A DNA stretch of 64,000 bases from assembly GCA_028293725.1 (NCBI GenBank), contig JAQGOE010000091.1:1-64000 (forward strand), in the 5' to 3' direction. The position numbers and the translations under genes were made by a program. The notes beneath the pieces were generated by a model. It ran no database searches. It was not told where the DNA came from and saw only the letters and a list, made by a program, of their open reading frames with translations. Within the stretch, counting starts at the first letter, position 1. Every line of letters starts with the position of its first letter. The stretch comes from Gammaproteobacteria bacterium (GTDB lineage Bacteria > Pseudomonadota > Gammaproteobacteria > Steroidobacterales > Steroidobacteraceae). This document shows positions 11,226 through 64,000 of this stretch, piece by piece.

Positions 11226-11247
11226 CCTTCACGGGGTAGAATGCTCT

Positions 11248-47544: not shown

Positions 47545-47961
47545 ATGACGCCCGACGACGTAATCCACTACCGCAGCGACCGTAAGGTCGACGCGGCGAC
47601 CTTCAAGGACATCCTCGAGCGCTCGGGACTCGCGGCCCGCCGACCCGTGAACAATATCGAGCGGCTCGAGCGGATGCTGAACGCCTACAACCTCGTCCTC
47701 ACCGCCTGGCGGGGCGAATCGCTGGTGGGGATCGCGACCTGCTGGACCGACTACGCCTATTCCGCCTACCTCGCCGACCTGGCGGTGGCGGCGGATTCGC
47801 AGCGCTGCGGCATCGGCCGGCAGCTGGTCGATCTCGCCCGTGCCATGGTCGGTCCGCAGGTCACCCTCATGCTGCTGTCCGCGCCCGCAGCCGTGGATTA
47901 CTACCCGAAAATCGGCATGGAGCGCTTCAAGGACTGCTTCATCTTCCGGCGCTCCGAGTAG
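47545..47961 (+). CDS. GNAT family N-acetyltransferase
   Basis: 138 aa. Core motif: strand AYLADLAVAADSQRCGIGRQLVDLAR, where RCGIGRQL is the acetyl-CoA pyrophosphate loop (R/Q-x-x-G-x-G/A), then VTLMLLSAPAAVDYYPKIGMERF. Substrate unknown; a small-molecule amine acetyltransferase is most likely. 26 nt downstream of the flavin reductase gene and 82 nt before the carrier protein. Confidence 0.8.
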   Translation: MTPDDVIHYRSDRKVDAATFKDILERSGLAARRPVNNIERLERMLNAYNLVLTAWRGESLVGIATCWTDYAYSAYLADLAVAADSQRCGIGRQLVDLARAMVGPQVTLMLLSAPAAVDYYPKIGMERFKDCFIFRRSE

Positions 47962-48043
47962 TTCACATAACGCCCCGGGTCCGGTGCCTTACTATTGCGG
48001 ACCATCGCAGACTTCGAATTCTTTGGCGTTACCCCAGAAAATC

Positions 48044-48298
48044 ATGACCGCAACAGATGACCTCCAGACGATCCGCCGCATCCTCAAGGAGCACGGCCGC
48101 CTCAGCCGGGATATCGACACCCTCGGCGCCGAATCCGACCTCTACGAAGCCGGCATGACCTCGCACGCCAGCGTCAACGTGATGCTCGCTCTCGAAGGCG
48201 AATTCGAAATCGAATTCCCGGACAGCATGCTCAAGCGCAGTGTGTTCGAGAGTATCGCCGCGATCGGTGCGGCGGTGAGTGAGCTGCGCGGCTCGTGA
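48044..48298 (+). CDS. Acyl carrier protein, variant Thr-Ser phosphopantetheine motif
   Basis: 84 aa, four-helix carrier protein. The attachment region is LYEAGMTSHASVNVMLALE, with Ser40 as the 4'-phosphopantetheine site; the usual Asp before Ser is Thr. Helix III IEFPDSMLKRSVFESI is typical. ACPs of this type occur next to amino acid:carrier protein ligases, one of which is encoded at 52957-53868. ATG 48044 preceded by AGAAAA only, a weak ribosome-binding site. The next gene begins 10 nt after its stop. Confidence 0.85.
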   Translation: MTATDDLQTIRRILKEHGRLSRDIDTLGAESDLYEAGMTSHASVNVMLALEGEFEIEFPDSMLKRSVFESIAAIGAAVSELRGS

Positions 48299-48308
48299 TG
48301 GCACGCCG

Positions 48309-50921
48309 ATGCCGGCCTCCGTCAAGAGCATTACCGGACACCGGCGCCAGGCACTGACCACGGGCTGGGAGCTCCGCTCAACACCACCCGACGCTCATCG
48401 AAGCCCGGAAGATCTGGCACTGGCGCCATTGCAGTGGCTGCCCGCGCACGCGCCGACCACGGCGGCGGCCTGCCTGCGCGCGGCAAATCTCTGGAGTCTC
48501 GACGCGCCCGCCCGACGCTTCGACGCCGAAGACTGGTGGTACCGCCTGCATTTCAGCGCTCCGCCCCGCGAGTCGCACGAGGAGTTGGTTCTCGGCTTTG
48601 ACGGACTCGCGACCGTGGCGGATGCCTGGTTGAACGGCGTGCCGCTGTTGAGCAGTGACAACATGTTCCTGGCCCACGAGCGGGTCATCGACGCACCGCT
48701 GAGCGGCGCGAACGAGCTCATCATCCGCTTTCGCGCACTCGACCGGCTGTTGGAAGCCAAGCGGCCGCGTCCGAAGTGGCGTGCTCCGATGGTGGAAAAT
48801 CAACAGTTGCGTTGGTTTCGAACCACCTTGCTGGGACGCACTCCCGGCTGGTCGCCGCCGGCGGCGCCCGTGGGACCCTGGCGCGGAGTGTGGCTCGAGA
48901 CTCGCGCGGTCATTCGTGTCCCGAGCCTCGTCGTGCGCAGCGGCGTGGAGGGAGCTACGGGTTGGGTGGAAGTGACGGCCACTCTGGAGTCCATGGCTCA
49001 CGGCGGCGCGATAGCTGACGTCGCCCTGGTCGTAGCCCGTGGCACGGACCGACGGCACTCGATCGCGCTACAACGTACCGCGGGCGCCGATTCCCACGCC
49101 TACGGCGGTCGGCTCGAGATTCCTGACATCGCATTGTGGTGGCCGCACACCCATGGCGAGCCGGCGCTCTACGAGGCGCGTCTGGAGGTAACAGTAACTC
49201 CCGATGGCCACAGCGGCGCACAGCGCGGCCAGGCGCTGCCAGACGCGCGCGCGGCGGACACCACGCTGCAGGTCGACCTGGGCCGAATAGGCTTCCGCAC
49301 CATTTCTCTCGACACTCAGGCAGGCGACTTCGCACTCCGCATCAACGGCGTGCCGGTTTTCTGCCGCGGTGCTTGTTGGACGCCCCCCGACCCCGTCAGC
49401 CTGGACACCCCCGCCGACTCTCTGCGCAGCGCATTGGAGCAAGTGCGCGCCGCGGGGATGAACATGCTGCGCGTCGGCGGCACGATGGTCTACGAAAGCG
49501 ACGCCTTCCTCGAGTTGTGCGACTCCAACGGCATTCTCCTGTGGCAGGACTTCATGTTCGCCAACATGGAGTATCCCGAGTCCGACGCCGGCTTCGCCGC
49601 CTCCGTCGCGGCCGAAGCGCGCCAACAGCTCGGCCGGCTGGCCACGCACCCCTGCCTGACTCTCCTGTGTGGCAACAGCGAAGGCGAGCAACAGGCGGCT
49701 ATGTGGGGTGCGCCCCGCGAAAGCTGGTCTCCGCGGCTGTTTCACGAGCAACTCGCGCAACTGTCCCGAGAGCTCTGCCCTGAGGTGCCCTACTGGCCCT
49801 CGAGCGCTCACGGCGGCTCGTTTCCACACGAGGGCAATTCCGGCACCACCTCATATTATGGAGTGGGGGCCTATCTGCGGCCCATGGAGGATGCGCGCCG
49901 CGCGGAGGTCCGCTTCGCCTCCGAGTGCCTGGCATTCGCCAACGTCCCGGAAGAGCGCACGCTGGCGAAAATGCCCGGAGGCGCGGCGATCCGTTGTCAC
50001 CACCCGGCCTGGAAAGCGCGCACACCGCGCGACCTGGGCGCCGGTTGGGACTTCGACGACGTGCGCGACCATTACCTGAAGTTGCTTTTCAAGGTCGATC
50101 CACTCGAGCTGCGGTATGCCGATCACGAGCGTTACCTGGCACTCAGCCGCGTGGTCTCCGGCGAAGTCATGGCGAAGGTGCTCGCCGAATGGCGCCGCAA
50201 ACGCTCGACGTGCCGCGGAGCCTTGATCTGGTTCTGGCGCGACCTGTGGTGCGGAGCCGGCTGGGGCGTGGTCGATGCGCTCGGTACTCCCAAGGCGGCG
50301 TATCACTACATTCGCCGGGCAGCGCAGCCCATTGCGCTTGCCATCAGCGACGAAGGCGGCAACGGACTCTATCTGCACGTGACGAATGAGCACGCCGCGC
50401 CGTTGGTGGCGACTCTGGAGTTGAAGTTATATCGGGGCGGTGAGATCGGCGTCGGCAGCGCGACCCGGACCCTGACACTTCCCGGCCGCGACACGGCCGA
50501 GCTTGCCGCGGCGGAGCTGTTCGAAGGATTTCTCGACCTCTCCTATGCCTACCGCTTTGGACCGCCCCCTCACGATCTGGTGGTCGCGACAGTCACCGAT
50601 TCGAGCGATAGCGTGTTGGCCCAGGCATTCCATATGGTGGGAGGGCTGAAGGACTCGCGAGAATTCGACATCGGGTTGAGCGCTACGGCCATCGCCCGGG
50701 GTGACACATTCGACTTGAAAATCACAACGCGCCGCTTTGCGCAGTCAGTATGGATCGAGAGCGAGGGCTTTCGCGCCGACGACGCTTACTTTCACATCGC
50801 GCCGGGCGGCGAAAAGACGCTGTCCCTCGCGCGGATTCCACACGAGCCCGAGCGCCCACTGCGCGGCCGCGTCCACGCTCTCAACGCACACACCGCCGCG
50901 AAGATCGAGATTCGCGCATGA
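48309..50921 (+). CDS. Glycoside hydrolase family 2 (beta-mannosidase-like)
   Basis: 870 aa from ATG 48309 (a GTG 10 codons earlier overlaps the ACP gene). GH2 layout: N-terminal jelly roll (YRLHFSAPP, LVLGFDGLATVADAWLNGVPLL, GPWRGVWLE), Ig-like domain, TIM barrel from about residue 350 (FCRGACWTPPD, RAAGMNMLRVGGTMVYES, LWQDFMFANMEYP) and C-terminal beta domains. General acid Glu458 in CGNSEGEQQ; nucleophile probably Glu539 in FASECLAF. No signal peptide, so apparently cytoplasmic, unusual for an EPS-degrading enzyme; perhaps it acts on a glycosylated intermediate. Confidence 0.85.
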   Translation: MPASVKSITGHRRQALTTGWELRSTPPDAHRSPEDLALAPLQWLPAHAPTTAAACLRAANLWSLDAPARRFDAEDWWYRLHFSAPPRESHEELVLGFDGLATVADAWLNGVPLLSSDNMFLAHERVIDAPLSGANELIIRFRALDRLLEAKRPRPKWRAPMVENQQLRWFRTTLLGRTPGWSPPAAPVGPWRGVWLETRAVIRVPSLVVRSGVEGATGWVEVTATLESMAHGGAIADVALVVARGTDRRHSIALQRTAGADSHAYGGRLEIPDIALWWPHTHGEPALYEARLEVTVTPDGHSGAQRGQALPDARAADTTLQVDLGRIGFRTISLDTQAGDFALRINGVPVFCRGACWTPPDPVSLDTPADSLRSALEQVRAAGMNMLRVGGTMVYESDAFLELCDSNGILLWQDFMFANMEYPESDAGFAASVAAEARQQLGRLATHPCLTLLCGNSEGEQQAAMWGAPRESWSPRLFHEQLAQLSRELCPEVPYWPSSAHGGSFPHEGNSGTTSYYGVGAYLRPMEDARRAEVRFASECLAFANVPEERTLAKMPGGAAIRCHHPAWKARTPRDLGAGWDFDDVRDHYLKLLFKVDPLELRYADHERYLALSRVVSGEVMAKVLAEWRRKRSTCRGALIWFWRDLWCGAGWGVVDALGTPKAAYHYIRRAAQPIALAISDEGGNGLYLHVTNEHAAPLVATLELKLYRGGEIGVGSATRTLTLPGRDTAELAAAELFEGFLDLSYAYRFGPPPHDLVVATVTDSSDSVLAQAFHMVGGLKDSREFDIGLSATAIARGDTFDLKITTRRFAQSVWIESEGFRADDAYFHIAPGGEKTLSLARIPHEPERPLRGRVHALNAHTAAKIEIRA

Positions 50922-51679
50922 CGCTCGACAGCGCCGCTGGCGATGCTCGCGCGCCGAAGGGCGAGCGCATTCTCGATATCGCGGGCCTTCGCACCACCGC
51001 CGTCGGAAACCCGGATGCGCCGTTGACGTTGGTGTTACTTCACGGGTACGACATGAAGCCCGCGGACCTCGCACCGTTCGCTCACTCCATAGGCATCCCG
51101 GCTTACTTTCTTCTCCCGCAAGGACCGGTCTCCACTCCCAACCGCGGTCATGCCTGGTGGGAGGTGGACCTGGAGGCTCGGGAATCCTCCCTCTCCGTCG
51201 GACCCCGGGATCTGGCGAACGACCACCCCCACGGTCTTGCAGCTGCACGCCGGCAGTTCGGGCAGTTCCTCGCGGCGGTGACAGCAGAGGTAAAGCCGGG
51301 CCCCACGGCCAGCCGAACGACCCGCCGCCCAACGACAATCATAGGCGGCTTCTCTCAGGGTGGAATGCTGGCGCTCGATTGGGTCTTGCGCGGCAACCAA
51401 CGCGTCGACGGCCTCGCACTGCTGTCAACCTCACGCCTGGCCCTGAGCGAGTGGGAGCCCCAGCGGGAACGGCTGCGGAATCTCCCGGTATTCCTCAGCC
51501 ACGGAGCGACCGATCGGGACCTGGCTTTTGCGGCGGGCGAGCGCCTGCGCGACTTTCTGTTGGAAAGTGCAGCGCAGCTCACGTGGACGCCCTTCGAGGG
51601 GGGACACGAGATCCCCTTGGTAGTGTGGCGCGGTTTGCGGAAGTTCCTTGCCGCCTCAGCTAAAATGAAAGGGATCTGA
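50918..51679 (+). CDS. Alpha/beta hydrolase (carboxylesterase/phospholipase-like)
   Basis: 253 aa from ATG 50918, overlapping the preceding stop (ATGA). LVLLHGYDMKPADLAPFA oxyanion strand, nucleophile motif IIGGFSQGGMLALDW, acid in HGATDRDLAF and His in EGGHEIPL. Matches the small carboxylesterase/lysophospholipase (YpfH/EstB) family. It may remove acyl groups from carrier proteins or sugars in this gene set. Cytoplasmic. Confidence 0.82.
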   Translation: MTLDSAAGDARAPKGERILDIAGLRTTAVGNPDAPLTLVLLHGYDMKPADLAPFAHSIGIPAYFLLPQGPVSTPNRGHAWWEVDLEARESSLSVGPRDLANDHPHGLAAARRQFGQFLAAVTAEVKPGPTASRTTRRPTTIIGGFSQGGMLALDWVLRGNQRVDGLALLSTSRLALSEWEPQRERLRNLPVFLSHGATDRDLAFAAGERLRDFLLESAAQLTWTPFEGGHEIPLVVWRGLRKFLAASAKMKGI

Positions 51680-51763
51680 AAGTCTCAAAGCGCGCACGCC
51701 CGCGAAAAATGTGGGCGGCGTCACACAAAATCGCCCCAGTACCAGGCACCGGATCGCGCGACT

Positions 51764-52939
51764 ATGACCAGTATTACCCCTGAATTCAGTGCTCACCTTG
51801 CCGCGCTCAAGGCCATCGCGGTCGACGTTGCCGCGGTAAATGCCGCCGATGTGGACGCCAAGGCCCGCTTTCCGCGCGAAACGATCCAGGCGCTGCAAAA
51901 GGCGAAACTGCTCTCGGCCCCCATCCCACGCGAGTTGGGCGGTCCCGGCTACCGCATGCGCGAGCTCGCCGCGTTGTGCTCGACCCTGGCACAGTCGTGC
52001 GGCTCGAGCGCGATGGTGTTGGCCATGCATTACATACAGGTCGCCTGCATCGCCCGGCACGCGCAAACCTCCGCCTTCTTCCGTGACTATCTGAAGGAGC
52101 TCATCGAGCACCAGTACGTCCTGGCTTCGATGACTTCTGAAAACGGCACTTTTGGCGAGACCCGCACCAGCATCTGTGCGGTCGAGCGCAGCGACGGCCG
52201 GTTCAAGCTAGATAAAGACGCCACGACCGGCTCCTACTGCGAGCACGCCGACGGCATCCTCGTGACCTGCCGGCGCGGACCGGAGGCTCCCAGCAGCGAC
52301 CAGGTTCTGGTCCTCGTCCGCAAAGGTGACTACAAGCTCACGCAGACCACCTCCTGGGACACCCTCGGCATGCGCGGCACGTGCAGCCCGGGCTTCAAAC
52401 TCGAGTCCGCGGGCTCCGAGGAGCAGATCATTCCGGGTGCCTTCGCCGACTCGTCGGCGCAAACGATGGTGCCGTATTCGCACATTCTCTGGGCATCCCT
52501 CTGGTGGGGAATCGCCGCCGACGCCGTCGGCCGCGCGGCCGAGTTCGTGCGCGCCGGCGCCCGTAAAAATCCCGGTACCGTGCCGCCGACAGCAACCCGC
52601 CTCGCGGAAGTTTCCACGCAGCTGCAGGCGGCCCGCCACAACTGGCTGGCGCTCGCCACTGAATTCGACGAGCTCGATGCGAAACCCAACGGCCTGAAGG
52701 ACCTGTTGAACATCGGCTGGGCGCTGAAGCTCAACAACCTCAAGATCAATGCCTCCGAGACCACGCCGCAGATCGTGCACAAGGCGCTGCAGATCACCGG
52801 CATTCTCGGCTACAAGAACGATTCGAAATTCAGCCTGGGCCGCCACTATCGCGATTCGTTGTCGGGAGCTCTCATGATCTCCAACGACCGCATCGCTTCC
52901 AAGAGCGCCTCGATGCTGCTGGTCTTCAAGGACAACTAA
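51764..52939 (+). CDS. Acyl-CoA (acyl-ACP) dehydrogenase family protein
   Basis: 391 aa, ACAD fold. ALQKAKLLSAPIPRELGGPG, CSTLAQSCGSSAMVLAMHYIQ, then LASMTSENGTFGETRT and WDTLGMRGTCSPGF (FAD-domain middle motif), C-terminal helices with RIASKSASMLL. The C-terminal motif of a canonical catalytic Glu is not obvious. Homologues sit beside amino acid:carrier protein ligases, so the substrate may be aminoacyl- or acyl-ACP. 17 nt upstream of the ligase gene, same operon. Confidence 0.8.
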   Translation: MTSITPEFSAHLAALKAIAVDVAAVNAADVDAKARFPRETIQALQKAKLLSAPIPRELGGPGYRMRELAALCSTLAQSCGSSAMVLAMHYIQVACIARHAQTSAFFRDYLKELIEHQYVLASMTSENGTFGETRTSICAVERSDGRFKLDKDATTGSYCEHADGILVTCRRGPEAPSSDQVLVLVRKGDYKLTQTTSWDTLGMRGTCSPGFKLESAGSEEQIIPGAFADSSAQTMVPYSHILWASLWWGIAADAVGRAAEFVRAGARKNPGTVPPTATRLAEVSTQLQAARHNWLALATEFDELDAKPNGLKDLLNIGWALKLNNLKINASETTPQIVHKALQITGILGYKNDSKFSLGRHYRDSLSGALMISNDRIASKSASMLLVFKDN

Positions 52940-52956
52940 ACTCGGGAGAAGGTCGG

Positions 52957-53868
52957 GTGACTGTCGATTACAACGCGGAAAAATTCTACGCGGGCCTCGT
53001 CGAGCACCGCCTCATCATCCCGGTCGGAGTGCAGGGTGCATTCGGCCGCGGAGCGGTCTTCGAGGATGTCCTCGAGCGTTTCAACGGCCTGGTCTCGCAG
53101 CTGTCGAAAAACGATAACGCCGAGTTCTATACCTTCCCGCCGGTCATCAGCCGCAAGGTGTTGGAAAAGGTCAACTACCTCGACTCGTTTCCGCACCTGT
53201 GCGGCGCGGTCTACAGTTTCTTCGGCAAGGAGCTGCAGGCGATCGCGCTGGCCAAGCGCGTGCACGAGGGCGAGCCGTGGGGCGACATGCTCGGCATGAC
53301 CGACGTGGTGTTGAATCCCGCCGCCTGCTATCCCGTCTATCCGAGCTTCACCGGTGTCGTGCCCAAGGGCGGCCGCCTCGTGACCATGTTGAATTGGGTC
53401 TACCGTCACGAGCCCTCGCCGGAACCGACACGCATGCAGTCCTTCCGGGTGCGCGAGTTCGTCCGCGTCGGTACGCCCGATGAAGTGGTCGAATGGCGCG
53501 ACATGTGGCTGCAACGCGGCATCGATCTGTTGACCTCGCTCGGCCTGCCCGCGAAATCCGACGTTGCCTCCGATCCGTTCTTCGGCCGCGGCGGCAAGAT
53601 CCTCGCCGCCGGCCAGAAAGAGCAGAAGCTCAAGTTCGAAGTGCTGGTCCCGGTGATCTCGGCGGAGGATCCCACCGCCGTGTGCTCGTTCAACTTCCAC
53701 CAGGAGCACTTCGGCTCCACCTTCGACATCCGCACCCAGGACGGCAATGTGGCCAACACGGCCTGCCTGGGCTTCGGCCTGGAGCGCATCGTGATGGCGC
53801 TCTTCAAGACCCACGGCTTCGACCCCGGCAAGTGGCCGACGGAAACGCGCCGCCTGCTGTGGCCCTAG
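52957..53868 (+). CDS. Amino acid:[carrier protein] ligase (class II aaRS-like)
   Basis: 303 aa from GTG 52957 (GGGAGAAGG upstream). It is a truncated homologue of atypical seryl-tRNA synthetase with no tRNA-binding domain. Zinc ligands by family pattern: Cys124 (NPAACYPVYPSF), Glu167 (SFRVREFVRVG) and Cys270 (NTACLGFGLERI). Class II motif 2 is around FRVREF and motif 3 around GLERIVMAL. Characterised relatives activate glycine or alanine with ATP and load it on the phosphopantetheine of a partner ACP. The likely partner is the carrier protein at 48044-48298. Confidence 0.9.
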   Translation: MTVDYNAEKFYAGLVEHRLIIPVGVQGAFGRGAVFEDVLERFNGLVSQLSKNDNAEFYTFPPVISRKVLEKVNYLDSFPHLCGAVYSFFGKELQAIALAKRVHEGEPWGDMLGMTDVVLNPAACYPVYPSFTGVVPKGGRLVTMLNWVYRHEPSPEPTRMQSFRVREFVRVGTPDEVVEWRDMWLQRGIDLLTSLGLPAKSDVASDPFFGRGGKILAAGQKEQKLKFEVLVPVISAEDPTAVCSFNFHQEHFGSTFDIRTQDGNVANTACLGFGLERIVMALFKTHGFDPGKWPTETRRLLWP

Positions 53869-53876
53869 AGCCTGAC

Positions 53877-54860
53877 TTGAGCCAGCCACCGGCGAGCGTT
53901 CTGCGGGGGCTCGATCCCGCCAACTACCCGCGCAGCGTTCTGCATGCGGAGAGTTGTGTCTGGGTGGAGAAGAACTGTTACGTCGACATCTGGATCGAAG
54001 TCATTCACGCGCTCGGCCTCGAGCCGCGCGCCATCCTGCCTTTCGTGGCCGCCATCGACTTCGAAGGCGACCAGTGGACGTTCTTCAAACCTCCGCACGG
54101 CGAGCTGAACGACCTGTACGGCATCGACGTGCAGGAGCTGAACGTCTGGCGCCCGTTGCTCGAGCACGCGCTCGAACACCTCGCCGCCGGCAAGCTGATC
54201 TCAACGGAAGCCGACGCATTCTGGCTGCCCGACACCTCCGGGACGGACTACCGGCGCCAGCATACGAAGTCGACCATCGTGCTGAACGATCTCGATCTCG
54301 AGAACCGTACCCTCGGCTACTTTCACAACGCCGGCTACTACCGCTTGGAGGGCGAGGATTTCGCGCGTACCTTCCGGCTCGACGTCCCACCGGACCCCAC
54401 ATTCATGCCCCTGTTCGCCGAAGTCGTGCGGATCGATCGTGTGATCCGCCGCCCTGAGGCAGAGCTGGTCGCGATGTCGCGTGAGCTCTGGCGTCGCCAC
54501 CTGGGGCGCCGTCCCACGCGCAATCCGGTTAGAAGCTTCCAGGAGCGCTTCGAGCGCGACCTGCCCGGCCTGCAGGAAAAGGGGCTCGCTCATTATCACG
54601 CCTGGGCTTTCGGAACGATCCGGCAGCTCGGCGCGGCCTTCGAGCTGGCAGCGCTCAACCTCAAGTGGCTCACCGCCAACGGCACCCCCGGCCTCGAGAC
54701 GGCCACCGCCGCCTTCGAGCAGCTCGCGAATACCAACAAGACGCTCATCCTCAAAGGCGCTCGTGCCACCAACAGCAGACGTCCCCTCGACGGCGCGCCG
54801 CTGTTCGACGCCATGGCTTCCGCCTGGGAAAACGGACTCGGCTCGTTGCACGAGCTTTAG
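53877..54860 (+). CDS. DUF1839 family protein
   Basis: 327 aa from TTG 53877, 8 nt after the ligase stop; there is no ATG nearby and the frame upstream overlaps the ligase. Conserved stretches: SVLHAESCVWVEKNCYVDIW, DFEGDQWTFFKPPHGELNDL, YGIDVQELNVW and FHNAGYYRLEGEDF. DUF1839 proteins are found almost only next to aminoacyl carrier protein ligases. The Cys and the DQWTFFKPP segment hint at an enzyme, perhaps a transferase taking the aminoacyl group from ACP, but no function is proven. Confidence 0.82.
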   Translation: MSQPPASVLRGLDPANYPRSVLHAESCVWVEKNCYVDIWIEVIHALGLEPRAILPFVAAIDFEGDQWTFFKPPHGELNDLYGIDVQELNVWRPLLEHALEHLAAGKLISTEADAFWLPDTSGTDYRRQHTKSTIVLNDLDLENRTLGYFHNAGYYRLEGEDFARTFRLDVPPDPTFMPLFAEVVRIDRVIRRPEAELVAMSRELWRRHLGRRPTRNPVRSFQERFERDLPGLQEKGLAHYHAWAFGTIRQLGAAFELAALNLKWLTANGTPGLETATAAFEQLANTNKTLILKGARATNSRRPLDGAPLFDAMASAWENGLGSLHEL

Positions 54861-54913
54861 GCTTTAACGCCTCGGTCACGATCCTTTGTCGTTGAAAATG
54901 ATAGGATTCCCGG

Positions 54914-56107: not shown

Positions 56108-57260
56108 ATCAGTAGCCGACAGCCTGCGTGTGAGCGTTCTGTCGGCGGGCGACGGGCCGGCGCTGAGCGCGTTTTATCGCGCGGTGTGGAGCTCGAGCAG
56201 CGCGCCCGAGGAGCCTGCGTCGGATGCAACTGACTCGCGCATACCCTGCCCTTTTACAGCCGATCCGCCACCGGTGGTAGGTGTCTACGCGGGCGCGGAT
56301 CTCATTGGCCATCTGGGCTCGATTCCAACGGAGTTCTGGGACGGACAACGCGGCACCGGCGCCCACTGGCTCAAGGGCCTGATGGTGCTGGAGCAGTATC
56401 GCAACGGGCCGATCGGCTACCAACTCGTGAAGGAGATGATGAAGCAGGTCGCCGTTACCGCGGTCATGACGGTAGCACCGGCGGCTCGCCGCCTGTTCCA
56501 GGCGGTTGGCTTCAAGGACCTCGGCTCGGTCCCCAACTACGTCAGCGTGATTCGTCCCACACGAGTGTTACGAGCGATCGATGTGGAACGACTGGGGTTG
56601 ACGTCGCTCCCCCGTGCGTTGCGAACGATGCTGGGCCTGTCGCGCCTGCCACCGGTCGCCTGGGTTGGAGGTAGCCTGGCGGCCGTGGGACTGGGCCTGG
56701 TCGATGGCGCGAATCACCTGACCTGTCTGGGCTTGCGGGCCCGCATCGGCGCGACACCCCCGGGCGTTGCCGAGACGGACGCGGTTTGGGAGCGACTCCG
56801 GACCCAACTGGACCTGTCGCCCTCTCGCTGCGGCGCCTACATGGAATGGCGCTACGCCGGTCACCGGCCCGGACGCTACGAATTCATCGAAGTCCGCCGC
56901 GGCAGCCAGCTCGTGGCACTGGTGGTTGTAAGGCGACCCGAGAGAGTTGACGACCCGCGGCTGGCGGGCTTGCGTGTCGGGCTCGTCGTCGATCTGGTGG
57001 TCGATCCCACCGATACCGCGGCGGTCACCGCAGCCTTCCTGGCCGCGCGAAAATGGGGAAAAAAAGCCTCTTGCGACGCGGTTCTGTTAACTTTATCCCA
57101 CCTTGGCGTGGGGCGGCTTGTGAAGCGACTCGGCTTCATTAGAATTCCGGGAAACGTGCATTTCATGCTGCGTGCCCCCGCCGGCGCGCCAATAACGGCC
57201 CCCAAGGACACCGGGCGCTCCTGGTTGACACGTGGCGACGCGTGGGGCGACGATATTTGA
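56097..57260 (+). CDS. Large GNAT-family acyltransferase (two GNAT-like halves)
   Basis: 387 aa from GTG 56097. First half: GLMVLEQYRNGPIGYQLVKEMM is a GNAT acyl-donor loop, then VAPAARRLFQAVGFKDLG. Second half (about 215-370): CGAYMEWRYAGHRPGRYEFIEV, VVDLVVDPTDTAAVTAAFLAARKWGKK, VKRLGFIRIPGN. Proteins of this size and layout occur in polysaccharide loci and are thought to transfer acyl or aminoacyl groups to amino sugars; they can use acyl-ACP. The next gene encodes an ACP. Donor and acceptor not known. Confidence 0.75.
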   Translation: MLSESVADSLRVSVLSAGDGPALSAFYRAVWSSSSAPEEPASDATDSRIPCPFTADPPPVVGVYAGADLIGHLGSIPTEFWDGQRGTGAHWLKGLMVLEQYRNGPIGYQLVKEMMKQVAVTAVMTVAPAARRLFQAVGFKDLGSVPNYVSVIRPTRVLRAIDVERLGLTSLPRALRTMLGLSRLPPVAWVGGSLAAVGLGLVDGANHLTCLGLRARIGATPPGVAETDAVWERLRTQLDLSPSRCGAYMEWRYAGHRPGRYEFIEVRRGSQLVALVVVRRPERVDDPRLAGLRVGLVVDLVVDPTDTAAVTAAFLAARKWGKKASCDAVLLTLSHLGVGRLVKRLGFIRIPGNVHFMLRAPAGAPITAPKDTGRSWLTRGDAWGDDI

Positions 57261-57280
57261 TTCTTGCGGAGAGAAGGCAG

Positions 57281-57541
57281 TTGACCGACCCGATTCAAAG
57301 CAGGCTCGAGCAGATCTTCCGAGCCGTGTTCGAGCTGCCGCCGGATGCGCAGGTTCTGAACATCCGCCAGATCAACTTCCGCAAGTGGGACTCACTCGGC
57401 CACGTGCTGCTCATGTCGGCCGTTGAAAGCGAGTTTGGCCTCGAGATCAACATCGCCGCGAGCGCCAAGCTCACCTCCTTCGAGTCTCTGGAGCTCTACC
57501 TGACGGAGAACGCCCGTGACCGAAGCGCGGTTCACGGTTGA
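57281..57541 (+). CDS. Acyl carrier protein, canonical DSL motif
   Basis: 86 aa from TTG 57281, with GGAGAGAAGG directly upstream; a GTG 13 codons earlier would overlap the GNAT gene. Ser38 in FRKWDSLGHVLLMSAVE is the phosphopantetheine site. Helix III LTSFESLELYL follows. Overlaps the MaoC-SDR gene by 26 nt, and FkbH follows, so this ACP likely carries the glyceryl or acyl unit handled by those enzymes. Confidence 0.87.
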   Translation: MTDPIQSRLEQIFRAVFELPPDAQVLNIRQINFRKWDSLGHVLLMSAVESEFGLEINIAASAKLTSFESLELYLTENARDRSAVHG

Positions 57542-58616
57542 GGTCGACGCCGAGGCTCCGATTGCCTTTGCACGACTGAGCGGCGACTGGAATCCGCTCC
57601 ACACCCGCGCCGACTATGCGGCGCGCACTCCTTTCGGCCGTCCCGTCCTGCACGGCGCCTACCTGAGCGGCCTGCTTTCGCGACTGGCCGGCATGTTTCT
57701 GCCTGGCGAGAAGTGCCTGCTCCATGGGATCTCGTTACGTTTCATAGCGCCCGTACAACCTCCGGTAACGCTCGCCGTCGCCGGCAAACTCATCGACGGC
57801 TCGATGGAGCAGGGTAGGGTCGGTGTGCGCATCACCGACGCGGTTTCCGGGACGGCCTATGCCGAAGGTCATTATGACTTCGGACTGCACACTTCCGGGG
57901 AAACGACCGCCCCTGCTGTCCACACCGCCGCGCCCGCCACTGCGGGAGCGAGCACGGTTCTGGTTACTGGCGGCTCGGGCGCGCTCGCCAGGGCCGTACT
58001 CGCGAAATTGTCGCCCACGGGGGCGCTCGGTGTGTCGCGCTCTTCGAGCGGCCCGGGCCTCATCAAAGGGACCACGGCCACCGAGATTGAAGCTGCACTC
58101 GAGGGGCGGCGCATCTCCGCCATCGTTCACTGCGCGTGGCCATCTCCCGACAACGAGTCGCTGACAGACCTCACGGATGTTCGCGCCGCCACCGAATTCA
58201 ACATCGCCGCACCGTTACGCGAAGCCATCGAGCTGGCGCAACTGCTGAAAAAGCGCGGCACGGCCGACAGCATGCTCGTGCTCATCGGCTCGACGGCCGC
58301 GGAGCCCGGTCGTCATAACTATCGCATGCCGCTTTACACCTTGAGCAAATCGCTCGTCCCCACCCTGTGCCGGGTGCTGGCGACCGAGCTCGCCGTCTCC
58401 TCGCAGCGCTGCGTGGCCGTTGTTTATGACGTAATCGAAGGCGGAATGAATGGCCGCCTCAGTGCGAGCGCGCGTATCGCCCACAAAGATCGCTCGCCGT
58501 TCGGACGCATCGCCTCGCCCGACGAGGCCGCCGAGCAGTTGGTCTGGATTCTGAACAACAAGAGCTTCCTGGCCTCCGGATCGACCCTGGAGCTGACCGG
58601 AGGCGCCGCGCCGTGA
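57516..58616 (+). CDS. MaoC-like dehydratase fused to short-chain dehydrogenase/reductase
   Basis: 366 aa from GTG 57516. Residues 1-125: hot-dog (R)-hydratase, catalytic Asp24 and His29 in SGDWNPLHTRADYA followed by TPFGRPVLHGAYL. Residues 145-366: SDR with TGGSGALA (151-158), Ser259 in IGSTAAE, and Tyr274-Lys278 in YTLSK. Together these reactions (reversible 3-ketoacyl reduction and dehydration on ACP) equal half of a fatty acid elongation cycle. Downstream FkbH overlaps by 4 nt. Confidence 0.83.
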   Translation: MTEARFTVEVDAEAPIAFARLSGDWNPLHTRADYAARTPFGRPVLHGAYLSGLLSRLAGMFLPGEKCLLHGISLRFIAPVQPPVTLAVAGKLIDGSMEQGRVGVRITDAVSGTAYAEGHYDFGLHTSGETTAPAVHTAAPATAGASTVLVTGGSGALARAVLAKLSPTGALGVSRSSSGPGLIKGTTATEIEAALEGRRISAIVHCAWPSPDNESLTDLTDVRAATEFNIAAPLREAIELAQLLKKRGTADSMLVLIGSTAAEPGRHNYRMPLYTLSKSLVPTLCRVLATELAVSSQRCVAVVYDVIEGGMNGRLSASARIAHKDRSPFGRIASPDEAAEQLVWILNNKSFLASGSTLELTGGAAP

Positions 58617-60244
58617 ACTTCCTGCAAGCACATGCTGCCGTGAAAGGCTTGCGCGACGGCAAGCCGTTGCGCTTTACGTTGGTCTGCTCGGGGGTCACCG
58701 CGACTCTCGAGCTCTTCCTGCGCGCACACGCCGCACAGGAAGGCATTGACGCGCAGGTCGACACCATTCCCTTCAACTCGCTAGCGCAAAGGATCCGCAC
58801 CAAGGACACTTCCGGCATGTTGGAAGTGTTTCTGTTGCTGCCGTGGGACCTCCTGCCGGTGGCGGACTGGCGCACGGGCCTGCCCGGCAACTCGGTCAGT
58901 TATGAACAGGCGGAGGTCGTTCTCTCCGAGCATGTGCAGCTGCTTTCCCAGCGCTCCGCCGCACGCTTCGTCTACCTGCAGGCTCCGATCCCACCGCTGG
59001 GAACCACAGCGGCGGCGGCGCGCGCGCTCGAAACACAAGTTCTGGCGGCAGCCCGCCGTGTCGGCGCCGCTGAATTGCCCCGTCAGTGTTTCAACCTGGC
59101 GTCTTACTTCGAGACCGGCAATCCGCTCGCCTCGCAGTCCCTGAGCGAGATCGCCGGACAAATCATCCAGGCGGCGCTCGCCGCGCGGCGTGAGCCGAAG
59201 AAAGTCCTGGTCACCGACCTCGATAACACTCTCTGGAACGGCGTGATTGGCGAGGACGGCGTCGATGGCATCGCCTACGGGCCCGAAGGGCGTGGCTATC
59301 CGTTCTTCGCCTACCAATCGCTGCTCCACAAGCTACGGCAGGAGGGCACGATTCTCGCGGCCGTGAGCCGCAATGACGCCGACCTGGCGCTGGCTCCTTT
59401 CAAACGCGGACAGATGACCCTGCGCGAGGCTGACTTCGTCGCCATCATCGCCAGCTACAATTCGAAGTCCGCGCAAATCAGTCAGCTCGCGCAGGAGTTG
59501 AATCTCGGCCTCGATTCCTTCGTCTTCGTCGACGATAACCCCATCGAGCTCGAGGAAGTCGGGCGGGCGCTGCCGACGGTCGAGCGCGTCCTGTTCGAGG
59601 GCAAGCCGGCCGCATTGCCGGACTTGTTCGAGCGATTGACTGCACTGTTCGGAAAGGCCACGCTGACCGAAGAGGATACCAAGCGGACCGAGATGTACCG
59701 GGCGCGTCTCGGAAGCGCGGTGCCGAGCACCGCCGCGGGTGCGGATCTGACCGAGTTCCTGAGCTCCCTGGAGATGAAGCTGACGATCCGCGAGCGCGCG
59801 CTCGGTGACCACGCGCGCTGCCTACAGCTCATCAACAAAACGAACCAGTTCAATTTCAACGGCCGCCGCCTGAGCGAGGCCGAGCTCGAATCGACCCTCA
59901 CGGCTGGCGGCCACCTGATAGGGGTGACCCTCGATGATCGCAACGGGACTCACGGCGAAGTGATCGCTTGCCTGATCGATGCGGCGGGCACCGTCGAATC
60001 CTTCGTCATGTCCTGTCGCGTATTTCAACGACGTGCCGAGTTTGCGTTCGTCGCCTGGCTGGCGGCGCAGTCGTACGCGCCTCGGGAGTACCGCTATATT
60101 CCCACCGAGCGGAACGAGCCGGTCCGTATGTTTCTCGAACAGTTGCAACAGAGCACCAGCGAAGGATTGATCCCGTTCGAGGGGCAGCGCGTGGCGATGG
60201 AGTGCGCCTCGGACCTGGCCCTGTTCCGCGTCACCGCCACATAA
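58613..60244 (+). CDS. FkbH-like HAD-IIIC family protein
   Basis: 543 aa from GTG 58613 (4-nt overlap). N-terminal SGNH-like region (1-195), HAD domain with VTDLDNTLWNGVIGEDG (DLDNT 202-206), AVSRND and FVDDNPIELEEV, then a GNAT-like C-terminal domain (INKTNQFNFNGRRLSEAEL, HGEVIACLID). FkbH-type enzymes take 1,3-bisphosphoglycerate, dephosphorylate it and load glycerate onto an ACP; others act in polysaccharide or glycan acyl transfer. The ACP at 57281-57541 is the obvious partner. Confidence 0.87.
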   Translation: MNFLQAHAAVKGLRDGKPLRFTLVCSGVTATLELFLRAHAAQEGIDAQVDTIPFNSLAQRIRTKDTSGMLEVFLLLPWDLLPVADWRTGLPGNSVSYEQAEVVLSEHVQLLSQRSAARFVYLQAPIPPLGTTAAAARALETQVLAAARRVGAAELPRQCFNLASYFETGNPLASQSLSEIAGQIIQAALAARREPKKVLVTDLDNTLWNGVIGEDGVDGIAYGPEGRGYPFFAYQSLLHKLRQEGTILAAVSRNDADLALAPFKRGQMTLREADFVAIIASYNSKSAQISQLAQELNLGLDSFVFVDDNPIELEEVGRALPTVERVLFEGKPAALPDLFERLTALFGKATLTEEDTKRTEMYRARLGSAVPSTAAGADLTEFLSSLEMKLTIRERALGDHARCLQLINKTNQFNFNGRRLSEAELESTLTAGGHLIGVTLDDRNGTHGEVIACLIDAAGTVESFVMSCRVFQRRAEFAFVAWLAAQSYAPREYRYIPTERNEPVRMFLEQLQQSTSEGLIPFEGQRVAMECASDLALFRVTAT

Positions 60245-60247
60245 AGT

Positions 60248-61246
60248 ATGTATCCCGGTGGTAAACGTTTTGCCTTCACCGTCTTCGACGATACGGACGT
60301 TGCCACCCTGGATTCGATCCGTCCGGTCTACGATCTGCTGTATGACCTGGGATTTCTGACGACAAAAACAGTCTGGCCGCTGAGTTATGACCAGCCGAGC
60401 TCTTACGCGGGATCGAGCTCGCTCGAGGATGACGAGTACCGCGAGTACCTCCTCCTGTTGCAATCGCGGGGCTTCGAGATCGCCTCCCACGGCGCGACGA
60501 TGGAGACTTCACTGCGCGCCGACTCGGAACGCGCGTTGCAGTTGTTCCGCAGTGTCTTCGGCCACGGACCGACCTCGTATGCAGCCCACTCGCGCAACCG
60601 GGACAACCTCTACTGGGGACGTCACCGCTTTCAGTTCGGCCTCTGGCGCGGGCTTTATCAAACGCTGGCCGGTCGGCGTGATCCGGAATACTCCGGTCAC
60701 ATCGTCGGATCTGACGTCTATTGGCTCGATCTGGTGCCCGAGCTGCGCTATATCCGCAATTTCACCTACGACGGTGTCGACCTGAATCGCGTCACGCCGC
60801 ATATTCCCTACCGGACCGCGAAGACGGCGGCGGTACATGGCTGGTTTCCGTCATGCGACGCCGACAACGTTGAGGAGTTCCTCGAACTGCTGAGCCCCGG
60901 CAACCAGGAAGCGCTCGAGAAAGCGGGCGGTCTGTGCATCGTCAGCACTCATTTCGGCAAGGGTTTCATCCGTAACGGCCGCGTGCGCGACGATGTAGCA
61001 CGGACACTCGAAGTATTGAGCAAGCGCCCCGGCTGGTTCGTTCCGCTCACCCCATTGCTGGATCACCTGGCAGCCGCTCGTGGAATCACGAGCCTCACCG
61101 GCCCGCAGTTGTTTCGTCTCGAAGGCCTCTGGTTCGTGCATATGCTGCTGCGCCGCCGCCGCCACCGCCGTTACGAAGCGACCGAGACGCCTTTCCTCAT
61201 AGCCGCTCAGAAAGCGCGTGCCGCGCGACTGGAGCGCACGGCATGA
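60248..61246 (+). CDS. Polysaccharide deacetylase-like protein
   Basis: 332 aa. Starts GKRFAFTVFDDTDVATLDSI, where FDDTD is the metal Asp segment of NodB-type deacetylases; GFEIASHGATMETS supplies the His-containing motif 2 (SHGA). The later STHFGKGF may hold the last His. The normal RxPxG motif is not clear. Probably deacylates a sugar or carrier-linked glycan in the cytoplasm (no signal peptide). 3 nt after FkbH and 4-nt overlap with the acyltransferase. Confidence 0.7.
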   Translation: MYPGGKRFAFTVFDDTDVATLDSIRPVYDLLYDLGFLTTKTVWPLSYDQPSSYAGSSSLEDDEYREYLLLLQSRGFEIASHGATMETSLRADSERALQLFRSVFGHGPTSYAAHSRNRDNLYWGRHRFQFGLWRGLYQTLAGRRDPEYSGHIVGSDVYWLDLVPELRYIRNFTYDGVDLNRVTPHIPYRTAKTAAVHGWFPSCDADNVEEFLELLSPGNQEALEKAGGLCIVSTHFGKGFIRNGRVRDDVARTLEVLSKRPGWFVPLTPLLDHLAAARGITSLTGPQLFRLEGLWFVHMLLRRRRHRRYEATETPFLIAAQKARAARLERTA

Positions 61247-62340
61247 AGTTCAAGATCTCGGAAAACAACTTCGACCTGATCCGGCTGTTCGCGGCCACCG
61301 AAGTGGCCGTGCTGCATATTTTCTCGTACCTGTCGCCGCAGATCTATTCGCACCCCACGCCGCTGCAGGATGCCGTCATCCGGCTCCTGGAGATGTTTCC
61401 GGGCGTGCCCACGTTCTTCTTCATCAGCGGCTTTCTCATCAGCCGCTCGTACGAGCGCGTCGGCTCGTTGCGCGAATATGCGCGCAACCGGAGTCTGCGA
61501 ATATTTCCTGCACTGTATGCCTGTGTCGCCGTCAACCTGCTGATGGTGTGGGCGACCGGCTACCTCGCCGCCAACGGCGTCGGCTTCGGCCAGGTCATGT
61601 TGCTCTACATCGCCAAGACGACGTTCTTCCAGTTCTACAACCCCGATTTCATGCGCCATTTCGGCGATGGCGTGTTGAACGGCAGCCTGTGGACGGTGTG
61701 CGTGGAGCTGCAGTTCTATTTCCTGATACCGCTGGTCTACAAGCTGCTGCCCGGCGGGAACAAGCGAGCGACGAACATCGTCCTCATCGCGCTCATCGTC
61801 GTGTCGATCGTCTGCAACCGCTTGCTCTACGCAAACCAGCACGAGTTCGCCGACTCCAATTACTGGAAGCTGGCGCGCGTCAGCTTCCTGCCCTGGTTTT
61901 ACATGTTCCTGACGGGCGTGCTGGTCCAGAAGAATTTCGAGGCGGTCTGCCGGTTCCTGCCGCGGAACTCCTTCTTCATCTACATGCCCGCCTACATCGC
62001 CTACGCGGCACTCATGCTGAGTCTGGGTTTCAGCTTCCACAACGACATCAGCCCACTGCTGTACTTTCCGCTGGTGGCAGCGGTGCTGGCCAGCGCCTAC
62101 TCGGCCCCGACGCTGGCGCGCCGCTTGCTGAACGGAAACGACCTTTCGTACGGGATCTACATCTACCATGTCCCTTTTATGAACATGTTTCTGTTTTATG
62201 GCTGGCTGAACAACACGCTCTACACCGCAATCGTCATGGTGCTCACCATCGCCGCGGCGGCCATCTCCTGGTTTGTCATCGAGCGCCCCAGCCTGCGGCA
62301 GAAACACCGGACCATGCACCCAGTACCGGCCGCACCGTGA
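61243..62340 (+). CDS. Acyltransferase 3 family membrane protein (OafA/NodX-like)
   Basis: 365 aa, about ten TM helices. Family signatures: NNFDLIRLFAATEVAVLHIFSY with the catalytic-site His, FFFISGFLISRSYER, RNRSLRIFPAL, GSLWTVCVELQFYFLIPL, and SYGIYIYHVPFMNMF near the end. Transfers acetyl or other acyl groups across the inner membrane to polysaccharides. A carrier-protein-linked acyl donor is plausible from context. ATGA overlap with the deacetylase-like gene, GTGA with the hydrolase. Confidence 0.87.
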   Translation: MKFKISENNFDLIRLFAATEVAVLHIFSYLSPQIYSHPTPLQDAVIRLLEMFPGVPTFFFISGFLISRSYERVGSLREYARNRSLRIFPALYACVAVNLLMVWATGYLAANGVGFGQVMLLYIAKTTFFQFYNPDFMRHFGDGVLNGSLWTVCVELQFYFLIPLVYKLLPGGNKRATNIVLIALIVVSIVCNRLLYANQHEFADSNYWKLARVSFLPWFYMFLTGVLVQKNFEAVCRFLPRNSFFIYMPAYIAYAALMLSLGFSFHNDISPLLYFPLVAAVLASAYSAPTLARRLLNGNDLSYGIYIYHVPFMNMFLFYGWLNNTLYTAIVMVLTIAAAAISWFVIERPSLRQKHRTMHPVPAAP

Positions 62341-64000
62341 CTGGCGTAGAGCGGCGACCGCTGTATTTTGGAAACGAGGGCCGCCCGCTGTTCGGTTGGT
62401 TGCACCTGCCGGCGCACTCTACTGCATCTATCGGTCTCGTCATCTGCAACGCGTTCGGCAACGAGGCCCTCTGTTCTCATCGCAGCGTCCGCCACTTCGC
62501 CGAGCGGGCGGCCCGACAGGGTATTCCGACGCTGCGGTTCGATTACGACGGCACGGGTGATTCAGCGGGACATGATCTCGAAGCCGACCGTCTCGTCGCC
62601 TGGATCGCAAGTGCGGGAGCCGCGGCGGACGAGATCAGGGCCGCGACCGGTGTAGCGCGCGTCTGTTTTGCGGGCATTCGCCTCGGCGCCGCGATCGCCA
62701 CTCTGGCGGCTCTCGAGCGCACCGATGTGGCGGGACTCATTGCCATTGCACCGGTGCTCAGTGGGAAGGCCTACGTGCGCGAGTTGCGTCTGTTGACGCG
62801 GGCCATGGAGGCTAAAAGTAACAGTACTAACGGTACTAACAGTACAAATTCCGGCCGCCCTGACCTGTTGCAGGCCGCCGGCTTCGCGATGACTGCCCAG
62901 ACCCAGGAAAGTCTCCACGAGATCGACCTGAAGCGGCTCGCGAAGCCTCCCGCCGCTCAGATATTGGTTCTCGACCGGGCAGAACTGCCTGCGGGCGACG
63001 CGTGGCCGCAGCACCTTCGTAACCTCGGCGCACGGGCGGAACGGGTCGCGGTCGCCGGGTACACCGAGATGATGCTCGACAGTCACGAGACAGTCATTCC
63101 GCAGGAAATCATCGGCACCGCGTTAGGTTGGTTGGGTGGGATCTCCGCTCCCGGCCAGCGCACCGAAAGCAGGCCAACCTGGGCGGCACGTGAACGGGCC
63201 GTGATCCCACAGGGTTCCCAGATCGACCCTGTTACGGGAGACACGCCCTCGGCAACCGTAGAAGAGAGCTTTGTCAGGATTGGCCCAGCGCCCGAGCTTT
63301 TTGGAATTGTCAGCGTTCCGCTGTCGCAGCGACGTGACCGCGCCGCAAACGGTCCCGCTGTCCTGTTATTGAACGCTGGCGCGGTGTACCACGTCGGCCC
63401 AAATCGCCTGTACGTCGCGTTTGCACGTCATCTCGCGCGATCCGGCTACGTGGTGTTGCGCATGGACATCGCTGGTATCGGCGATAGCCCCGTGCGCGAG
63501 GGCGAGGCGGACAACATCGTCTACTCGAAGTTCGCGCTGGATGACCTGGGCAAGTCCATCGATTACCTGCGGCGCGAATGGGGCGTCCGCGATGTGCGCG
63601 CCGTCGGCCTGTGCTCGGGCGCCTATCACGCCTTCAAGGCGAGCGTCGCGCGCCTGCCGCTGACGCACGCCGTGATGATCAATCCGCTGACTTTTTTCTG
63701 GAAAGAAGGCATGTCGCTCGAATATCCCGAGCACCGGATTGCCGCTGACATCGTGCGCTACCGCACCAACGTGCTGCGTCTGTCTTCCTGGCTGAAACTC
63801 TTCACCGGCGGAGTGAATCTCGTGGAGCTTGGACACGTGCTCGCGCGACGTGCACGAACCGTCACGCTGACAGCGCTTCGCGCACCCGCACGCCTGTTGG
63901 GCATTCCCTTGCAGGATGACCTGCCGAGCGAGCTACGCACGGCGGCAAGGGCTCCTGTACAACTGCACTTTCTTTTCGCAGCCACCGATCCGGGGCAGGA
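62337..64000 (+). CDS. Two-domain alpha/beta hydrolase, exosortase A system-associated type (cut by window edge)
   Basis: GTG 62337 overlaps the acyltransferase stop by 4 nt; 554 codons are visible with no stop before the window end. Domain 1 (about 5-265): LFGWLHLPA, NAFGNEALCSHRSVRHFAERA, RFDYDGTGDSAG; the nucleophile elbow reads GIRLG (Arg115 instead of Ser). Domain 2 (about 315-554): LLNAGAVYHVGPNRLYVAFA, RMDIAGIGDSP, elbow GLCSG (Cys426). Related to XrtA-associated hydrolases. It may hydrolyse or transfer acyl/aminoacyl thioesters. Absent from automatic calls probably because it has no stop in the window. Confidence 0.85.
   Translation, partial: MTGVERRPLYFGNEGRPLFGWLHLPAHSTASIGLVICNAFGNEALCSHRSVRHFAERAARQGIPTLRFDYDGTGDSAGHDLEADRLVAWIASAGAAADEIRAATGVARVCFAGIRLGAAIATLAALERTDVAGLIAIAPVLSGKAYVRELRLLTRAMEAKSNSTNGTNSTNSGRPDLLQAAGFAMTAQTQESLHEIDLKRLAKPPAAQILVLDRAELPAGDAWPQHLRNLGARAERVAVAGYTEMMLDSHETVIPQEIIGTALGWLGGISAPGQRTESRPTWAARERAVIPQGSQIDPVTGDTPSATVEESFVRIGPAPELFGIVSVPLSQRRDRAANGPAVLLLNAGAVYHVGPNRLYVAFARHLARSGYVVLRMDIAGIGDSPVREGEADNIVYSKFALDDLGKSIDYLRREWGVRDVRAVGLCSGAYHAFKASVARLPLTHAVMINPLTFFWKEGMSLEYPEHRIAADIVRYRTNVLRLSSWLKLFTGGVNLVELGHVLARRARTVTLTALRAPARLLGIPLQDDLPSELRTAARAPVQLHFLFAATDPGQ
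62817..62849 (+). repeat. A/T-rich 9-nt tandem repeat inside the hydrolase gene
   Basis: Units AGTACTAAC (62823-62831), GGTACTAAC (62832-62840) and a decayed AGTACAAAT (62841-62849), preceded by a shortened AGTAAC. In frame it encodes a Ser/Thr/Asn run (SNSTNGTNSTNSG, residues 161-173) in domain 1. The base composition differs strongly from the surrounding G+C-rich sequence. Confidence 0.8.

Follow-up and report, generated by a model that had tools for sequence, protein, structure and literature searches.

In lincosamide biosynthesis, CcbD transfers a carrier-bound amino acid to an amino sugar, and in teichoic acid D-alanylation an amino acid held on a carrier protein (DltA/DltC) is destined for a surface polymer, the latter system relying on an adenylation-domain (A-domain) ligase and membrane acyltransferases with no papain-like enzyme. 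Loading of amino acids onto carrier proteins is likewise established chemistry for the class-II aminoacyl-tRNA synthetase (aaRS)-like ligases such as Bll0957 of Bradyrhizobium, for which no acceptor pathway was found described in the literature searched. The biological role of these ligases is still called unknown in the available part of a 2022 review (PMC9437257), which cites their 2010 description and names Ala, Gly and Ser as amino acids of the family. BtrH of butirosin biosynthesis (PF14399) is an acyl carrier protein (ACP):aminoglycoside acyltransferase of a papain-like superfamily that, in the available part of PMC10318531, also includes the protein family DUF1839. Here we describe a gene cassette that combines such a ligase with DUF1839, a family mentioned in a single paper of the literature searched (5.39 million papers), in a 64,000-nucleotide stretch of the gammaproteobacterial contig JAQGOE010000091.1 (Steroidobacteraceae; hereafter “the window”). 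We consider it probable that the core of this cassette is a self-contained aminoacyl-transfer pathway in which DUF1839 hands the amino acid to an amine, probably that of an exopolysaccharide (EPS) sugar. A literature search returned no described pathway with this gene set, although most subscription papers lay outside that search and absence is therefore not proven.

A search of GTDB genome contigs guided by a DUF1839 profile yielded 230 stretches encoding the family, the best 80 of which were analysed. Many of these loci were short, and the presence of window proteins was scored by tblastn both across all 80 and across the 42 “large” loci that extend more than 8 kb from DUF1839 in both directions. 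Alongside DUF1839 itself (80 of 80), we found the ligase in 75 loci, a glycoside hydrolase family 2 (GH2) protein in 71, an acyl-CoA-dehydrogenase-like (ACAD-like) flavoprotein in 70 and the carrier protein ACP1 in 65, with a double alpha/beta hydrolase (48), an esterase (28) and a flavin reductase (6) being less frequent. The corresponding counts in the large loci were 41 for the ligase, ACP1 and GH2 alike and 40 for the ACAD-like gene, followed by the hydrolase (32), esterase (16), flavin reductase (6) and an FkbH-type protein (2). Of the 70 loci with all three of the ACAD-like, ligase and DUF1839 genes, 68 have them in an uninterrupted row on one strand. Co-occurrence of the five core genes extends to records titled Gammaproteobacteria, Burkholderiales, Myxococcales, Gemmatimonadetes and Acidobacteriota, and this recurrence across distant groups indicates an association beyond chance. 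In a second, independent sample, 398 genomes spread evenly over the phylum to which a Steroidobacter genome (G001) belongs, DUF1839 was detected in 16 and the ligase, above its family cut-off, in 28. The ligase directly adjoined a DUF1839 copy in all 16 DUF1839 genomes, and the gene order ACP1-ACAD-ligase-DUF1839-GH2 was found in all 15 new ones. The conserved unit is thus composed of ACP, ligase, ACAD-like protein, DUF1839, GH2 and hydrolase; these core genes are not scattered and unlinked, as they would be had the linkage put forward in the original prediction failed. To our knowledge, a ligase-ACP-DUF1839-GH2 set has not been described from XrtA/PEP-CTERM EPS loci. Clustering of open reading frames (ORFs) revealed one further widely recurrent family, the holo-ACP synthase AcpS (48 of 80 loci, 31 of 42 large ones), identified from a single scanned member (PF01648, E 6e-19). 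As tblastn with AcpS family members gave no match in the window (best E 0.06), AcpS was rejected as part of the window cassette.

The ligase (52957-53868, + strand, as are all cassette genes below) belongs to the Bll0957-type family, scoring 397.1 bits against NF005479 (curated cut-off 357) and matching PDB entries 4h2w (E 8e-79) and 3mey, the Bll0957 structure (E 1e-77). Its residues C124, E167 and C270 are invariant (n=23 sequences) and, counted by hand, align with the zinc-binding residues C131, E176 and C279 of Bll0957. The partner carrier protein near the ligase, ACP1 (48044-48298, with the ATG at 48044 chosen as start), exceeds the NF005480 cut-off (104 bits against 72, for the longer frame) and has the attachment serine, which was present in 100 of 100 tblastn-matched loci, some overlapping one another. 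ACP1 also gave a weak, sub-cut-off match to DltC. The ACP-bound amino acid system that had been proposed for this locus is present, with DUF1839 as a candidate transferase from its predicted structure.

The ligase also occurs on its own. Within the phylum sample, 12 of the 28 genomes with an over-cut-off ligase had no DUF1839, nor did a profile search of the regions fetched around the ligase find one, and the idea that all such ligases serve DUF1839 was therefore rejected. In these genomes an ACAD-like gene adjoins the ligase in 12 of 12 and ACP1 was detected in 10 of 12, whereas the gene after the ligase varies. Such loci, which keep ACP and ACAD but differ in the next gene, can be read as a modular arrangement in which ACP, ligase and flavoenzyme would provide the amino acid in activated form and the enzyme encoded next would set its destination. 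Names of these next genes were read from sequence, without a family scan. Of the six loci L116-L121, which have conserved surroundings, at least four (L116, L117, L118 and L121) have a GNAT-like protein adjoining the ligase; in L123 and L124 an alpha/beta hydrolase follows the ligase, succeeded in L123 by an AMP-ligase-like protein and a short-chain dehydrogenase/reductase (SDR). Sixteen further genomes reached only 101-175 bits for their best NF005479 match, below cut-off, and represent a separate, more distant ligase-like family. One of them has, in a row at about 7.2-10.2 kb of contig C255 (genome G326, locus L138), a ligase-like match (101 bits), a long ORF resembling a MATE transporter on visual inspection and a BtrH_N protein. 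This may be another case in which an aaRS-like loader is teamed with a BtrH-type protein.

DUF1839 (53859-54860) overlaps the ligase gene by 10 nt, and its predicted structure matches carrier-protein-dependent amide-forming enzymes, with CcbD, CtaG and AziU3/U2 as fold relatives. Both the papain-like N domain and the C-terminal helical domain are present, and the catalytic cysteine, C40, was found in 52 of 52 sequences and in 12 of 14 further copies. This relationship surfaced by structure comparison only: a Pfam scan gave no PF14399 match at E 0.001, a sequence search of the PDB returned only chance CorA matches, and a profile search only a glutathione S-transferase. BtrH itself was absent from the structure matches, from which we draw no inference. 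Because the fold, the conserved cysteine and the pairing with the ligase coincide, we propose that DUF1839 acts in the manner of CcbD, CtaG or BtrH and would use aminoacyl-ACP1 as its donor.

We next considered the link to EPS genes in 30 genomes picked from the 80 loci, chiefly for longer contigs, using initiating transferases or polysaccharide exporters as markers. A marker lay within 60 kb of DUF1839 in 16 of 30 genomes, against 2.4 expected from marker density, and within 20 kb in 9 of 30, against 0.98; these expectations ignore contig ends and genome relatedness and are indicative only. Seven transferase rows below 100 bits and eight Poly_export rows (second ORF pieces or below cut-off) were left out of the count, none of which adds a marker within 60 kb to a genome previously without one. 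In the phylum sample, using transferase rows on contigs of interest, a marker was found within 60 kb in 6 of 16 DUF1839 genomes and 0 of 12 ligase-only genomes (one-sided P 0.021). In 14 phylum-sample loci, each 20 kb long at most, 113 of the 121 proteins flanking the cassette were scanned and gave, with families overlapping on single proteins, 10 GT1, 8 GT4, 7 Hydrolase_4, 4 GNVR, 3 Wzz and 3 Bac_transf matches. The cassette hydrolase, moreover, is in two loci fused to a Wzx-like flippase domain (PF13440) lying N-terminal to it in one ORF (L097:1457-4768 and L098:14873-18199; 1103 and 1108 aa), and in a third (L099) the flippase and hydrolase genes overlap by 4 nt.

Several observations weigh against this reading, on the side of either the acceptor or the enzyme. 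At distances other than 60 kb the phylum-sample contrast was not significant (4 of 16 against 0 of 12 within 20 kb, P 0.089; 7 of 16 against 2 of 12 within 100 kb, P 0.13), and in 14 of the 30 genomes EPS markers were lacking out to 60 kb from DUF1839. The 80-locus set had diverse flanks, with few EPS families (GT1 5, Poly_export 4) in a scan of 130 of the 196 flanking ORFs shorter than 600 aa (226 before the size limit); both flank scans were made without a matched random-gene control. GH2 has no obvious role in the pathway, and the fold relatives of DUF1839 work in natural-product pathways rather than on polysaccharides. As for the enzyme, no Cys-His-Glu/Asp triad in canonical order was found: DUF1839 has a C-(T/S)-H arrangement, with T/S at 138 and His at 156, where CcbD has Cys-His-Glu. 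Its similarity to the BtrH_N profile is weak (hhalign probability 27%, E 7e-4, 195 columns), and in 2 of the 16 DUF1839 genomes of the phylum sample the ligase-adjoining copy has no catalytic cysteine. These two copies (L107:8401-9381 and L109:9935-10921) have Gln and Arg at that site; both genomes carry a second copy, which keeps the triad in L107, and the Cys-less copies are possibly pseudoenzyme partners.

Two rival explanations draw on these observations. One holds that the product is a small, soluble conjugate of amino acid and sugar, resembling lincosamides or mycothiol, with EPS genes merely frequent neighbours. The natural-product relatives, the marker-free genomes and the diverse flanks are what this view would predict, and a GH2 resembling beta-mannosidases could have a small glycoside as its substrate. 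It accounts less well for the enrichment of EPS markers and their absence within 60 kb in the ligase-only genomes, for the hydrolase-flippase fusions, for the GT1, GNVR, Wzz and Bac_transf genes of the phylum-sample flanks, and for the fact that none of the recurrent gene families was recognised as a transporter (small families were left unannotated); we regard it as rather unlikely. The other makes DUF1839 a hydrolase (thioesterase, amidase or peptidase) whose task would be editing or release of the aminoacyl group instead of its transfer. The available part of PMC10318531 classes DUF1839 among papain-like cysteine peptidases and describes a rearranged triad of this kind, both of which fit hydrolysis. 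The fold shared with amide-forming enzymes points to transfer, and hydrolysis appears to us quite improbable. We retain transfer to an amine, with an EPS sugar rather than another amine as the inferred acceptor, and have dropped the notion that the cassette always lies inside an EPS locus, the flanks of the 80 loci being diverse and showing no dominant neighbour. The EPS/XrtA link of the original prediction is upheld as an enrichment of EPS genes nearby and not as a universal rule, an XrtA-type EpsB being above cut-off in 7 of the 30 genomes.

The system would thus work like lincosamide synthetase or BtrH, while being distinct from them in triad order. Lincosamide synthetase (CcbD/LmbD, carrier protein, A domain) loads via the A domain of a nonribosomal peptide synthetase, whereas the window loader is an aaRS-like ligase, and the window adds an ACAD-fold enzyme, GH2, hydrolase, rearranged triad and EPS setting. 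BtrH belongs to PF14399, to which DUF1839 gave no match at E 0.001. Because the triad order differs and membership in the sequence family is not shown, we do not file DUF1839 as a CcbD/BtrH-type member.

Which chemistry the flavoprotein (51764-52939; PF02771, E 3e-11) contributes can be framed in two ways. It has the full ACAD fold (model pLDDT 93.1), and its top Foldseek matches include both monooxygenases (TdsC/DszC) and dehydrogenases (acyl-CoA dehydrogenases and TcsD, which acts on acyl-ACP), besides KijD3, the structure model giving no decision between dehydrogenase and monooxygenase. By alignment, both usual catalytic Glu positions are unfilled, with Ile at the position of MCAD-376 and Ser/His at that of IVD-254, and the protein has an invariant His240 at a site usually occupied by Arg. 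As a variant of the transfer model, and not an alternative to it, the flavoprotein may be a two-component monooxygenase working with the adjacent flavin reductase, with N- or C-hydroxylation of the carried group in place of dehydrogenation. The unfilled Glu positions and the first-ranked Foldseek match, TdsC, agree with this, as does the resemblance of the reductase (46526-47518; PF01613, E 6e-43) to that of p-hydroxyphenylacetate hydroxylase. The dehydrogenase and TcsD matches are about equally good, however, and the reductase occurs in few of the large loci, such that we entertain hydroxylation only tentatively. The reductase scores 194 bits against NF045919, below the cut-off of 340, and has a MarR-like C-terminal part with a weak HpaR-like match (E 0.006).

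On this basis, the following sequence of steps can be proposed. The aaRS-like ligase would activate a small amino acid and load it onto ACP1, after which the ACAD-fold flavoprotein, possibly partnered by the flavin reductase, would act on the aminoacyl-ACP thioester by dehydrogenation or oxygenation. DUF1839 would then take the group onto Cys40 and pass it to an amine, probably that of an amino sugar in a cytoplasmic EPS precursor, either lipid-linked or nucleotide-linked. Intermediates could be trimmed or recycled by GH2 and the hydrolase, either ahead of Wzx-mediated flipping or during it. In a few genomes, FkbH, a second carrier protein (ACP2) and an acyltransferase-3, joined here by a MaoC-SDR fusion, would probably provide this polymer with a further group, either derived from glycerate or hydroxyacyl in nature, with FkbH as the putative glyceryl-ACP2-forming enzyme. 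Overall, the original prediction is supported in part: the ACP-bound amino acid system is in place, and transfer of the amino acid to an EPS sugar is what we infer. More broadly, DUF1839 may represent a new class of aminoacyl-ACP:glycan N-acyltransferases that, together with the loader and an oxidising flavoenzyme, attaches an oxidised amino acid, of a kind so far unreported from polysaccharides, to the EPS of many bacteria, among them Proteobacteria and Myxococcota, a proposal we hold with some reserve. If true, it would give the amino acid:carrier-protein ligases a job, i.e. their missing physiological role, would extend to bacterial surface polymers a chemistry known from antibiotic assembly, in which an amino acid is moved from its carrier onto an amino sugar, and would lead one to expect exopolysaccharides bearing amino acids across many kinds of bacteria. 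With DUF1839 as partner transferase, both the ligase role and the DUF1839 function become testable in vitro with few proteins.

The accessory half of the cassette is far more restricted, and the proposal that the full gene set forms one conserved unit did not hold. A near-complete accessory set accompanies the cassette only in a close relative (L002), which is also the only locus in which MaoC-SDR, GT4 and the “double GNAT” (67% identity) were found with it; FkbH, ACP2 and acyltransferase-3 accompany it in L002 and L155, and the contig bearing the cassette of a Myxococcales locus (L012) has a partial FkbH match. FkbH, MaoC-SDR and double GNAT were accordingly rejected as core members on the tblastn counts. 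When FkbH alone was searched in 369 genomes from the class to which G001 belongs, 22 had a match, the best and sole near-full-length one (40% identity) being in genome G494. Its locus (L155, L157) encodes on one strand ACP1, ACAD, ligase, DUF1839, GH2, hydrolase and a methyltransferase, and continues with acyltransferase-3 (L155:7617-8663), ACP2, FkbH and a second hydrolase; beyond these lie a GNAT gene on the opposite strand, an unassigned ORF, a sulfotransferase, a GT2 and a DegT sugar aminotransferase. MaoC-SDR, GT4 and double GNAT were not found in the L155/L157 surroundings. The G494 genome is distant, its DUF1839 being 45% identical to that of the window, and ACP2 relatives share 72% (L002) and 33% (L155) identity with the window protein. 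The recurrence of cassette and FkbH-ACP2 together in such a genome supports, from few cases, two carrier systems serving one product. That unrelated operons abut beside an EPS locus by chance is compatible with the finding of a near-complete accessory set in L002 alone; given the co-occurrence of the core across phyla and the return of FkbH, ACP2 and acyltransferase-3 beside the cassette in G494, this view is largely refuted for the core and we consider it highly improbable.

Within the window, coordinates are positions in its 64,000 nt, and gene calls derive from an ORF listing with Pfam and NCBIfam scans, the latter covering 20 window proteins; several EPS-locus ORFs without Pfam match were outside that set. 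Sixteen closely spaced + strand genes extend from 46526 to the window end, adjoining an EPS locus at 15-46 kb. The first of them, the accessory flavin reductase gene, lies just upstream of the range given in the original prediction. All genes named originally are present on this strand, and 8 of 15 junctions overlap by 4-26 nt (9 of 15 if GH2 starts at the alternative GTG at 48279), the remaining gaps being 3-84 nt. After the flavin reductase come a GNAT acetyltransferase (47545-47961; PF13673, E 4e-10), seen in 2 of 42 large loci, ACP1, and GH2 (48309-50921; PF22666, E 2e-20). The best PDB match of GH2 is the beta-mannosidase 5n6u (E 3e-60), its CGNSE and ECLAF motifs are largely conserved (alignment, n=66 sequences), and no signal peptide was seen on inspection by eye. 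The recurrent accessory esterase (50918-51679; PF02230, E 1e-14), of the alpha/beta-hydrolase type, precedes the ACAD-like gene. Downstream of DUF1839 lie the GT4 glycosyltransferase (54914-56107; PF13692, E 6e-27), the GNAT-type protein (56097-57260; PF00583, E 2e-4), ACP2 (57257-57541), with a weak PF00550 match (E 0.071) yet a W-D-S-L motif, MaoC-SDR (57516-58616; PF01575, E 6e-15 and PF13561, E 3e-12) and FkbH (58613-60244), a HAD-type protein with a DLDNT motif read in its sequence (TIGR01686, 227 bits, cut-off 147). These are followed by a weakly identified deacetylase-like protein (60248-61246), the acyltransferase-3 membrane O-acyltransferase (61243-62340; PF01757, E 4e-29) and the core double hydrolase (62337-64000), which is cut by the window end and related to XrtA hydrolases 1/2 (TIGR03100 104 bits, TIGR03101 91 bits, both below cut-off, for the longer frame). 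Most labels first given to these genes were confirmed by family match, except that the “double GNAT” shows the first GNAT domain only and the deacetylase-like label is sub-threshold (DUF2334, E 0.048).

The neighbouring EPS locus (15545-42828, from Pfam and NCBIfam scans) comprises a heparinase-like protein, several glycosyltransferases, a ParA-type protein, a chain-length protein, an SLBB exporter, Wzy_C and a flippase. The chain-length protein has TIGR03007 as its best family match, at 187 bits against a cut-off of 279. There are two initiating transferases, one being an XrtA-type EpsB glycosylphosphotransferase (44886-46289, - strand; TIGR03013, 557 bits, cut-off 393). XrtA/PEP-CTERM EPS loci are thus matched by the window in an over-cut-off EpsB_2 and in the XrtA-related hydrolase; the available part of the 2006 description of these loci (PMC1569441) is without terms such as “acyl carrier”, “ligase” or “hydrolase”. 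A 775-aa ORF at 29500-31827 combines zinc alcohol dehydrogenase and GFO/IDH/MocA domains. Near the EPS locus, a histidine kinase and a sigma-54 response regulator form a pair at 11032-14787, reminiscent of the XrtA-associated PrsK/PrsR.

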